A DNA stretch of 33,805 nt from Plantactinospora alkalitolerans. GTDB taxonomy: Bacteria > Actinomycetota > Actinomycetes > Mycobacteriales > Micromonosporaceae. Position 1 is the stretch's first letter; the number at the start of each line of letters is the position of its first letter. The stretch covers positions 1 through 33,805 of the forward strand of contig NZ_JADPUN010000331.1 of assembly GCF_015690345.1 (NCBI RefSeq). Direction: 5' to 3'. The notes beneath the pieces are model-generated. The model made no database searches. It saw nothing but the letters and a program-made list of their open reading frames with translations, and was not told where the DNA came from. Both the position numbers and the translations under genes were made by a program. Below are positions 3,550 to 5,910 of this stretch, piece by piece.

Positions 3550-4026
3550 CTACAGGGCGCGTCCCGGCGGAACCGTCCAGCCTGGCGAGCCGTACGTGCC
3601 GCCGTAGTAGCCACCGATCTTGTCTCGGTAGGCGGGGTCCCCGTGCTCGGTCTCGTCGAACTCCGGAGCGTCCTTGATCTGTTCCTTGCTCCGGTCGACG
3701 TACACCTTCCGGTCGTCGTGGTCGACGTGGTTCACCACGCCGGCCGGCAACATGACCTTCTTGCCGAAGATCCACGGGCCGGTGTCGACCACCAGGTAGC
3801 TGGCGTTGACCTCGTGACTGGCACTGTCGATCTTGCCAATGCCGCCGTCGGTCGCCTCCACCTTGTAGCCGACCAGGTCGGCTCCGGTGACTCCGGCATC
3901 GTCGCGGTAGCGCCACGGGTCGAAGTCGCCCGACGGCGGGCCGCCCACGAAGGCGCCACCGCCGCCCTGGATCAGGGGATCCGGCGTCTGCTGCTGCGGG
4001 GTCGTCTGAGGATCGAGCCTGTCCAC
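3550..4026 (-). CDS. PRC-barrel domain protein
   Basis: 158-residue soluble protein. An N-terminal Pro/Gln/Gly-rich leader (about 1-45) precedes a PRC-barrel-like beta domain (about 47-115, GADLVGYKVEATDGGIGKID to KKVMLPAGVV and DRKVYVDRSKEQIKDAP) and a Gly/Tyr-rich tail. PRC-barrels occur in RimM, in photosynthetic reaction centre H subunits and in many stand-alone, often stress-induced, actinobacterial proteins; the exact role is unknown. GTG at 4026 is preceded by AGGAG 9 nt upstream. A possible SigB/SigF-type promoter (GTGT-N16-GGGTA) is present upstream, which would fit a stress role. Confidence 0.8.
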   Translation of the reverse strand: MDRLDPQTTPQQQTPDPLIQGGGGAFVGGPPSGDFDPWRYRDDAGVTGADLVGYKVEATDGGIGKIDSASHEVNASYLVVDTGPWIFGKKVMLPAGVVNHVDHDDRKVYVDRSKEQIKDAPEFDETEHGDPAYRDKIGGYYGGTYGSPGWTVPPGRAL

Positions 4027-4083: not shown

Positions 4084-4108
4084 TACCCAGGGGTCGCGAT
4101 CCATACAC
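4084..4108 (-). promoter_or_regulatory. Candidate SigB/SigF-type promoter of the PRC-barrel gene
   Basis: On the minus strand GTGT (4108-4105), a 16-nt spacer and GGGTA (4088-4084) fit the actinobacterial general-stress sigma pattern GNNT-N14-16-GGGTA, though the base after GGGTA is G rather than a pyrimidine. The transcript would have an untranslated leader of about 50 nt. Confidence 0.35.
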
Positions 4109-4172
4109 CACCCGGTCCCGCGATGTGGATTTCTCCTCCCAGATCCGTGGCCCGCGTGGCAGAGTACGGTCC

Positions 4173-4205
4173 GTGACCTGCTCCGCACTCATTATTGGCA
4201 ACTAG
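4173..4205 (+). CDS. Putative leader peptide of the cimA attenuator (MTCSALIIGN)
   Basis: Ten-codon reading frame starting with GTG and ending in CTC-ATT-ATT-GGC-AAC-TAG, so the last residues are Leu-Ile-Ile-Gly-Asn. ATT is a rare Ile codon in this GC-rich sequence, where Ile is almost always ATC, so two in a row are striking. It is followed by a hairpin (4205-4233) and an intrinsic terminator (4235-4270) ahead of cimA. No Shine-Dalgarno is visible. CAGAGT or TACGGT just upstream could be a -10 box for a leaderless or very short leader transcript. The same frame stays open upstream to a GTG at 4125, so the start is uncertain. The role is inferred by analogy with known actinobacterial ilv/leu leader peptides. 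Confidence 0.5.
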   Translation: MTCSALIIGN

Positions 4206-4233
4206 CGCGCCGGCGACCTCGGGCCGAGCGCGC
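4205..4233 (+). promoter_or_regulatory. Leader hairpin upstream of the cimA terminator
   Basis: GCGCGC (4205-4210) pairs with GCGCGC (4228-4233) and CGGC (4211-4214) with GCCG (4223-4226), with one bulged A: ten base pairs that start at the last base of the leader-peptide stop codon. The loop GACCTCGG repeats the GACCTC that begins the terminator's 5' arm, so it could compete for the 3' arm in an alternative fold. Confidence 0.5.
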
Positions 4234-4234
4234 A

Positions 4235-4270
4235 GACCTCCCGCATTCGCGGGGGGTCATTTTGTTTGTC
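4235..4270 (+). terminator. Intrinsic terminator inside the cimA leader (attenuator)
   Basis: GACCTCCCGC (4235-4244), loop ATTC and GCGGGGGGTC (4249-4258) form ten continuous pairs with one G-U, followed by ATTTTGTTTGT. This is the only T-tailed textbook terminator in the first 25 kb. It faces cimA (start 4321) and has no plus-strand gene before it back to ilvE at 2567, so it most plausibly acts as an attenuator of cimA. Confidence 0.75.
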
Positions 4271-4320
4271 GGGCCGGGCGACATCGGAGCAGGGGCTGCG
4301 CAGCTCTCGAAGGAGATCAA

Positions 4321-5910
4321 ATGACGTACCAGGTGTTCGACACGACGCTGCGCGACGGGGCACAGCGCGAGGGGATCAGCTACTCGGTCGTCGACAAACT
4401 GGCGGTGGCCCGACTGCTGGACGAGTTCGGCGTCGGTTTCATCGAGGGCGGCTGGCCGGGGGCGATGCCGAAGGACACCGAGTTCTTCCGCCGGGCCCGG
4501 ACCGAACTCGACCTCAAGCACGCCCTCCTGGTCGCCTTCGGCTCGACCCGCAAGGCCGGACTCGACGTGGCCGCCGATCCGCAGGTCCGGGCACTGCTCG
4601 ACGCCCAGACCCCGGTGGTGTGCCTGGTCGGCAAGTCCGACATCCGGCACGTCGAGCGGGCGCTGCGGACCACCGGGGCCGAGAACCTGGCGATGGTCCG
4701 GGACAGCGTGGCCCACCTCGTCGCCGAGGGCCGCCGGGTCTTCCTGGACTGCGAGCACTTCTTCGACGGCTTCCGGTACGACCCGGCGTACACCTCGTCC
4801 GTGGTCGAGACCGCGCTCGAGGCCGGCGCCGAGGTCGTCGTGCTGTGCGACACCAACGGCGGGATGCTGCCGTCCCAGGTGACCGGGGCGATCGGCGACC
4901 TGACCGAGCGGCTGGGCGTCTCCCCGGCGCGGCTCGGCATCCACACCCAGAACGACACCGGCTGTGCGGTGGCGAACACCATCGCCGCCGTCGAGGCCGG
5001 GGTACGGCACTTCCAGGGCACCGCCAACGGCTACGGCGAACGTCCCGGCAACGCGGACCTGTTCGCGGTCGTCGCGAACCTGCAACTCAAGCTCGGGCTG
5101 CCTGTCCTACCGGACCGGTGCCTGACGCAGATGGTGCGCGTCGCGCACGCCATCGCGGAGATCGCCAATATCGCCCCCGACACCCACCAGGCCTACGTCG
5201 GGGCCGCTGCCTTCGCTCACAAGGCGGGGCTGCACGCGAGTGCGATCAAGGTGGATCCGCTGCTCTACAACCACGTCGACCCGGCGGTTGTGGGCAACGA
5301 CATGCGGATCCTGGTGACGGAGATGGCCGGCCGGGCCAGCATCGAGCTGAAGAGCCGTGAGCTCGGGCTGGATCTGGCCGGCCATCCCGACGCCGCCGCC
5401 CGGGTCACCAAGCGGGTGAAGGAACTCGAGGCGGGCGGCTGGTCGTTCGAGGCGGCCGACGCGTCCTTCGAACTGCTGGTCCGCAGCGAGCTGCCCGGGA
5501 TGGGCGCCGCCCGGCCGTTCGCGCTGGAGTCGTACCGGGTGCAGGTCGAGCACCGCGAGGACGGCGCGGTGGTCTCGGAGGCGACGGTCAAACTCCGGGT
5601 ACGGGGTGAGCGGGTGATCGCCACCGCCGAGGGGAACGGCCCGATCAACGCCCTCGACGAGGCGCTGCGGGTCGGGCTGCTCCGGCACTACCCCGAACTG
5701 CGCAACTTCGAGCTGGCCGACTACAAGGTACGGATCCTGGAGGGCAGCCACGGCACCGGCGCGATCACGCGGGTGCTGGTGGAGACGACCGACAGCGGTG
5801 GCCGGGACTGGACCACGGTGGGCGTACACCCGAACGTGGTCGAGGCGAGCTGGCACGCCCTGGTCGACGCCCTGACCTACGGCGTCGCGCGTACTCCCGC
5901 GGAGGTCTGA
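4321..5910 (+). CDS. cimA: Citramalate synthase
   Basis: Cytoplasmic DRE-TIM metallolyase that condenses acetyl-CoA with pyruvate to (R)-citramalate, opening the threonine-independent route to 2-oxobutyrate and isoleucine. It has 529 residues: a catalytic TIM barrel (about 1-280; DTTLRDGAQREG at 7-18, VVLCDTNGGMLPSQV, GTANGYGERPGN), a linker and a C-terminal LeuA dimer/regulatory domain (about 390-520; GNGPINALDEAL, ILEGSHGTGAITRVLVET) where isoleucine feedback is expected. ATG 4321 is chosen for AAGGAG 5 nt upstream. The usual HxHND metal-binding motif reads HTQND (H208, Q210). The long leader with a terminator points to transcription attenuation. A LeuA paralogue is the alternative, but the overall pattern fits CimA better. 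Confidence 0.92.
   Translation: MTYQVFDTTLRDGAQREGISYSVVDKLAVARLLDEFGVGFIEGGWPGAMPKDTEFFRRARTELDLKHALLVAFGSTRKAGLDVAADPQVRALLDAQTPVVCLVGKSDIRHVERALRTTGAENLAMVRDSVAHLVAEGRRVFLDCEHFFDGFRYDPAYTSSVVETALEAGAEVVVLCDTNGGMLPSQVTGAIGDLTERLGVSPARLGIHTQNDTGCAVANTIAAVEAGVRHFQGTANGYGERPGNADLFAVVANLQLKLGLPVLPDRCLTQMVRVAHAIAEIANIAPDTHQAYVGAAAFAHKAGLHASAIKVDPLLYNHVDPAVVGNDMRILVTEMAGRASIELKSRELGLDLAGHPDAAARVTKRVKELEAGGWSFEAADASFELLVRSELPGMGAARPFALESYRVQVEHREDGAVVSEATVKLRVRGERVIATAEGNGPINALDEALRVGLLRHYPELRNFELADYKVRILEGSHGTGAITRVLVETTDSGGRDWTTVGVHPNVVEASWHALVDALTYGVARTPAEV

Follow-up and report, generated by a model that had tools for sequence, protein, structure and literature searches.

The 33,805-nucleotide (nt) stretch of Plantactinospora alkalitolerans DNA considered here (the window, meaning the whole stretch analysed) contains, at positions 4156-4270 of the plus strand, what is very probably, on comparative grounds, an isoleucine-responsive, ribosome-mediated transcription attenuator of cimA, the gene for citramalate synthase. 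The element begins with an extended -10-like box, GTGGCAGAGT (4156-4165), which was recognized by comparison across leaders and ends 7 nt ahead of a GTG codon at 4173. This codon opens a short, probably leaderless leader-peptide frame (4173-4205, VTCSALIIGN*; GTG ACC TGC TCC GCA CTC ATT ATT GGC AAC TAG), with the stop TAG at 4203-4205 and two candidate regulatory isoleucine (Ile) codons, ATT ATT, at 4191-4196. Eleven nucleotides separate the first ATT from hairpin P1 (4205-4233; GCGCGCCGGC ... GCCGAGCGCGC, one bulged A), whose base is the last letter of the stop codon, the G of TAG being its first paired base. A single unpaired A (4234) is followed by P2 (4235-4258), an intrinsic-terminator hairpin of 10 pairs with the loop ATTC, which lies 1 nt after P1 and runs into the T-rich terminator tail ATTTTGTTTG (4259-4268). 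The cimA gene (4321-5910, plus strand like the whole leader) starts with ATG at 4321, 115 nt from the leader stop with the terminator in between, and encodes 529 amino acids; its identity rests on a match to TIGR00977 of 601.5 bits (cut-off 450). The original prediction, made from the sequence alone, had described the frame, P1 and the terminator in front of cimA, and every part was found in place.

Taken alone, the single sequence provides modest evidence beyond chance: the fold of 4173-4270 has z = -3.17, with 1 of 200 shuffles equally good, and a terminator scan gave 1 terminator-like site vs 1.2 on average in shuffles. The significance of the leader comes from its conservation across cimA loci. 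In total, 110 cimA loci were collected (30 including the window's own, and a further 80), from which L033 (same record as L007) and L068 (27 nt of upstream sequence) were excluded. An Ile-codon frame, P1 and a P2 terminator with a T-rich tail are present in 104 of the 108 evaluable loci, so that homologous leaders retain both the Ile codons and the terminator, the comparison that had been proposed as a check. Some species may be represented twice among named and unnamed loci, and 98 distinct leader sequences stand behind the 104. L026, L041 and L079 are counted in, although for these the script picked a lone Ile codon at a distance of 29-33 nt from P1. The Ile run consists of two codons in 75 leaders, three in 23 and one in 6, and the frame is closed by TAG in 91, TGA in 11 and TAA in 2. 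The ends of the peptides differ between groups. Micromonosporaceae typically have LII(G/R)(S/T/N)*, Geodermatophilaceae IIIA* or IIIS*, Pseudonocardiaceae IIIDERVG* or IIISERAG*, Thermobifida IIIVRRAG*, and Streptomyces IIGSRRAGPQ* or IIGSSAPVRSDR*.

A covariance model of the leader (R1) was used for wider searches, the large ones being run with stricter filters, by which weak matches could be missed. At the family level, R1 matched in 199 of 200 genomes and cimA was found in 197. Among the 30 best R1 rows of the class sample, 26 have cimA among the matches listed, and in all 26 the leader was seen by eye to lie 29-173 nt upstream of cimA on the same strand. The phylum sample gave R1 matches in 48 of 296 genomes and cimA in 218, and many of the weaker matches sit ahead of genes other than cimA. 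For the 26 genomes of the window's own class in that sample, the leader is directly upstream of cimA in 12 of the 13 with cimA, and R1 did not match in any of the 13 without it. Within the genome of P. alkalitolerans, R1 found a single match (E 3.7e-21, against E 3.1 for the runner-up), and GCGCGCAGACCTCNCG is present once without mismatch.

The identity of the codons is a further point in favor of the attenuator. It had been noted at the outset that the Ile codons of the leader are rare here, and this is borne out: the window's own cimA uses 16 ATC and no ATT, and over the 104 loci ATT accounts for 158 of 225 Ile codons in the leader runs vs 40 of 1651 in the cimA genes. By group, the leader share of ATT is 112/120 in Micromonosporaceae and 46/105 in all others. 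The excess of ATT is thus strongest in Micromonosporaceae. The leucine (Leu) codon ahead of Ile-Ile is mainly a feature of that family, and elsewhere the Ile run follows, for example, Thr or Val (Thr-Ile-Ile-Ile, Val-Ile-Ile-Ile); of the suggestion that the leader senses both Ile and Leu, the Ile part is therefore borne out by 104 of 108 loci and the Leu part is weaker.

Further branched-chain genes, identified by eye from their protein sequences, also have leaders of this plan that R1 matches. Runs in ilvB leaders are mixed, such as CTC GTA CTT ATT or GTA CTC ATC CTC, a few having Leu and valine (Val) codons only, and the leader of one leuA-like gene has the Leu run CTG CTT CTC. The codon set thus tracks the gene, with Ile for cimA, Leu/Val with or without Ile for ilvB and Leu for the leuA-like gene, and these gene-matched sets are, at the level of sequence, a natural control for selection on codon identity. 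The genome of P. alkalitolerans itself carries an ilvB leader of this plan (L151; G000:C22, upstream of 8341, minus strand), MSSTRSFRVLI* with the codons GTA CTT ATC TGA, followed by a GCGCAC hairpin, GCGCACTCTCG...CGAGAGTGCGC, and a terminator with TTTTT. Its P1-P2 gap is 4 nt by script, and a longer P2 stem would give 1 nt. In the comparison of leaders from other classes and genes, no P2 was found for L230, L237, L242 and L243.

The pairing of both hairpins is supported by comparison. A structure alignment of 70 rows, out of 85 references prepared, has P1 and P2 paired in 98.7% of cells. Covariation, which had been put forward as a check, was found in the form of compensatory changes, P1 included: 6 of 15 pairs are changed on both sides, in 15 cells, and none of 500 shuffles was as high. 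The lowest P1 pairs are nearly invariant in this alignment, and the pairing of the upper P1 stem was taken from individual folds because the MAFFT alignment (A1) misplaces the upper pairs. In other classes P1 differs in sequence but still pairs, as in GAGCACGTGG with CCACGTGCTC.

The spacing between these parts is close to constant. Whether two or three Ile codons form the run, the distance from the end of the first one to P1 is 11 nt in 76 of the 104 leaders and 10 nt in 10, a constancy that is owed in part to shared ancestry. The last Ile codon lies 4-8 nt upstream of P1 in 99/104, which places the control codons outside the P1 5' arm, unlike those of the trp/his type, and the stop codon is at the P1 foot or within P1 in 103/104 by script. 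In all 104 leaders P2 begins 0-2 nt after P1, and 9-12 nt lie between the base of P1 and the point where the P2 5' arm ends. The latter distance is near the range of hairpin pauses. A stalled ribosome covers about 9-10 nt beyond the A-site codon, so that one held up on the first Ile codon would come up to the P1 foot and leave the hairpin closed.

The sequence ahead of the frame suggests that the leader peptide is leaderless. A hexamer of the form NANNNT stands 6-8 nt before an in-frame start in 92 of the 104 leaders, at exactly 7 nt in 70, and the start codons of the 92 are GTG in 75, ATG in 16 and TTG in 1. NANNNT occurs at 2.8% of background positions per fixed spacing; with three spacings and several starts allowed, the chance rate per leader is above this value, yet well under the observed 92/104. 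In the 70 leaders with 7-nt spacing, the letters GTGGC appear just ahead of the required A, each in 62-68 rows (the A and T of the hexamer being imposed by the filter). The 12 leaders without the box still have in-frame starts, and 10 of them are from Geodermatophilaceae, mostly with TTTACT- or TGTACT-like boxes. The box ahead of the start codon suggests that transcription starts at the GTG, upstream of the terminator; a start downstream of the terminator, raised earlier as a way in which the proposal could fail, is not indicated. It was reported for Streptomyces lividans that 17% of transcripts are leaderless, and seven of the eight leader peptides named are called leaderless there; cimA is not among the eight target genes (PMC8079986).

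As the arrangement is kept in many relatives, the cell probably gauges isoleucine by the ease with which Ile codons are read. Comparison bears directly on the conservation of the frame and its codon identity, on the P1 pairing, on P2 and on the spacing; we infer the transcription start, translation, pausing, the direction of the response and, above all, the effect of P1 on P2. In the proposed sequence of events, transcription would start at or beside the GTG and the leaderless ten-residue peptide would be translated at once. P1 would fold behind RNA polymerase, which might be kept waiting for the ribosome by a hairpin pause. With ample Ile-tRNA, the ribosome would reach the stop at the P1 foot and open P1, P2 would form and transcription would end. 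With scarce Ile-tRNA, it would halt as soon as it meets an Ile codon, with roughly one ribosome edge left to P1, P1 would stay folded, P2 would fail and cimA would be transcribed. P1 may act on P2 either through a C-rich loop that pairs with the G-run of P2 or as an abutting hairpin that hinders P2.

Several observations weigh against this reading. The leader is missing at 4 of the 108 cimA loci (L086, L096, L105, L110), all of them in metagenome-assembled genomes, and in the class sample R1 matched in 189 of 296 genomes vs 236 with cimA. In one family (f93) R1 matched in 2 of 27 cimA-bearing genomes and in another (f86) in 10 of 26, counted by eye with weak matches possibly missed. An Ile-run frame is present in 7 of 40 stretches picked by hand ahead of cimA genes, 39 of them from other classes, with L135 as an eighth case, and is missing within about 420 nt in the other 33; L186, scored negative among the 40, has an Ile-codon leader (L139) about 2 kb further up, ahead of a leuB-like gene. 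It was further reported that altered regulatory codons in the ilvB leader of Streptomyces coelicolor had no effect (Seliverstov et al. 2005, PMC1262725), which calls for caution with leaders built in this way. The remaining points concern the switching step. A classical 2:3 antiterminator was found in none of the 104 leaders, as the region from the P1 3' arm to the P2 5' arm is on average less well folded than letter shuffles of it (mean z +0.8, with 3/104 below z -1.5); folds minus the ribosome-covered part (29 leaders) gave no such pairing either, and this candidate was rejected. The initial remark that a strong antiterminator is not obvious was thus well founded. Pairing of the P1 loop with P2 is weak or absent in several leaders (L082, L089, L092, L095, L098, L104), shuffled loops pair nearly as well as real ones, and swapping loops and arms within families brings no loss of pairing.

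It is nevertheless quite possible, at somewhat under an even chance, that in the same attenuator a stalled ribosome leaves the C-rich P1 loop to pair with the run of G in the 3' arm of P2 as the antiterminator, an arrangement with a precedent in what was proposed for Corynebacterium ilvB-II (PMC10272879). In Micromonosporaceae and Geodermatophilaceae, pyrimidines make up 83-88% of the P1 loops and G 2-3%, and pairing of the loops with the P2 3' arm (-9.2/-10.9) is stronger than that of upstream controls (-5.2/-4.6), with shuffled loops at -8.2/-9.4. The apices are more complementary where P2 contains a G-run (-14.2, n=66, vs -9.4, n=17; p=0.002), and the effect is seen in Pseudonocardiaceae and others alone (p=0.027), in a comparison that ignores phylogeny and leaves out the Streptomyces-like leaders. 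Over all 104 leaders together, own loop-arm pairs are beaten or equalled in only 6 of 300 permutations. Against this stand the swaps within families, where own pairs are no better, and the shuffled loops, whose near-equal pairing means that the complementarity is mainly base composition. Judged by the loop, there is none in Streptomyces-like leaders (-3.0 vs -3.05) and little in Pseudonocardiaceae and others (-3.7 vs -3.2); the longer Streptomyces-like apices pair with the P2 arm at -11.5. Moreover, the 5' arm of P2 itself is a far nearer partner for the P2 3' arm. The GACCTC repeat that had been pointed out in the P1 loop is one instance of a more general feature, C-rich loops able to pair with the P2 3' arm, but one that is largely compositional and not found in every family.

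The alternative that no second pairing is needed, and that the abutting P1 hinders closure of P2 at the polymerase until P1 is melted by a ribosome at the stop and P2 is released, is somewhat more doubtful. The uniform spacing favors it, namely the P1-P2 gap, the first Ile codon at 11 nt and the stop at or in P1, but four leaders outside the class (L161, L187, L189, L191) have a gap of 4-5 nt, though with 11-14 nt to the P2 loop, and the constancy may partly reflect common descent. A broader form of this idea, rather unlikely in our estimate, is that actinobacterial branched-chain attenuators (cimA, ilvB, leuA-like) read the position of the ribosome by distance and not by a swap of base pairs. 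About 11 nt would then separate the first hungry codon from a hairpin next to the terminator, which also serves as the pause hairpin, and this hairpin would be opened, and termination allowed, solely by a ribosome reaching the stop at its foot.

That the leader is an unregulated terminator, or is bound by a protein or metabolite, with accidental Ile codons, would agree with a terminator scan not above chance, but is highly improbable, as the frame, the stop, the ATT codons and the gene-matched codon identity are all conserved and no Rfam riboswitch or T-box matches at the leader. A riboswitch or other known RNA was rejected on negative Rfam searches: no family reached its gathering score in the window apart from two tRNAs, the leader alone gave a best E of 1, far under gathering scores, and no T-box was among the matches at E up to 10 in 4090-4330. 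Least probable of all is an action of the leader peptide mainly on cimA translation by re-initiation or coupling, for which the short upstream frame and the re-initiation discussed for actinobacterial leader genes (Korolev et al. 2016, PMC4833913) could be cited, but which is at odds with the 115 nt to the cimA start, the terminator between and P2 with a T-rich tail in 104/108 loci.

In the classical enteric trp/his attenuator, the position of the ribosome on hungry codons picks the hairpin that forms, with a possible pause hairpin. The predicted attenuator of cimA is alike in both respects, as ribosome position would choose between hairpins, and differs in that no 2:3 antiterminator was found and the control codons lie outside the first hairpin. 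Among actinobacteria, ilv attenuation was studied experimentally in Corynebacterium and leaders were predicted in Mycobacterium and Streptomyces (PMC1262725, PMC11857589). The leader of Corynebacterium ilvBNC (the ilvB-II motif) shares with that of cimA a peptide, there with Ile/Leu/Val codons, P1 and P2, a terminator at P2 and a role in branched-chain synthesis; its frame spans most of P1 and an antiterminator of P1 loop and P2 was proposed (PMC10272879), unlike the cimA leader, where the control codons are upstream of P1, the stop is at the P1 foot and the codons are Ile. An ilvB-II-type pairing of the loop with the right shoulder of P2 is possible in most Micromonosporaceae and Geodermatophilaceae leaders and weak elsewhere, and is largely a matter of composition. 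The leader of Streptomyces ilvBHC (ilvL, MRTRILVLGKRVG*) likewise has a leaderless peptide, then hairpins and a U-rich stretch (PMC8079986), and differs in target gene and codon set. In the LEU element upstream of leuA, likewise from actinobacteria, a leader peptide also precedes the gene of a related enzyme; it is described without a terminator (PMC1262725), which the cimA leader has. The LEU element is characterized by a pseudoknot with a stem pairing control codons with the Shine-Dalgarno box.

No actinobacterial cimA leader was found in the literature searched, in which subscription papers are poorly covered. The ilvB precedents place the cimA leader in a known kind of attenuator, with an unusual geometry. 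If the proposal is true, citramalate synthase, the entry enzyme of one isoleucine route, is under a separate switch that responds to Ile specifically. This would hold for Micromonosporaceae, Geodermatophilaceae, Pseudonocardiaceae, Streptomyces and a few other groups, many of which make antibiotics. The leader would also offer a short, conserved and alignable system for learning how actinobacterial ilv-type leaders switch without a visible classical antiterminator.

Some minor observations were made on other leaders. The genomes of family f93, with few leader matches, are small (about 1.2-2.2 Mb) and retain cimA; attenuation was perhaps lost there along with genome reduction. The leader L139 (G333:C9:6870-6946; VIIIE*) is on the same strand as the cimA gene that follows about 2 kb downstream, and its leuB-like gene and cimA are possibly in one operon. 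Two loci of family f87 (L227, L228) have a second Ile leader (MFTPRIII*, MFALVIIM*) with P1 and a terminator, and the gene that follows encodes a protein of about 110 amino acids with no Pfam or NCBIfam match. In family f9 (L238, L244, L245), a small protein with the common stretch ...GTAEWQAPG(R/Q)VA... or similar stands behind a leader with branched-chain codons.

At the locus itself, the upstream neighbor (3550-4026) is a divergent gene on the minus strand, a PRC-barrel protein by a marginal Pfam match (21.3 bits, cut-off 21.2). As it had been argued from the start, there is thus no plus-strand gene in need of the terminator. The nearest hit with a species name is P. endophytica (94% protein identity). 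A further pairing, of CCTGCTCCG (4177-4185, in the leader frame) with CGGAGCAGG (4285-4293, in the stretch before the cimA ribosome-binding site), covers nine letters; it is kept in L004, L006 and L009 and broken in L007, hence genus-level at most, and was dropped. Finally, a block at 4123-4141 (ATGTGGATT, CTCCCA), about 30-50 nt ahead of the leader start, recurs in many Micromonosporaceae loci; it is unlike the -35 consensus and is perhaps an operator or an upstream promoter element.
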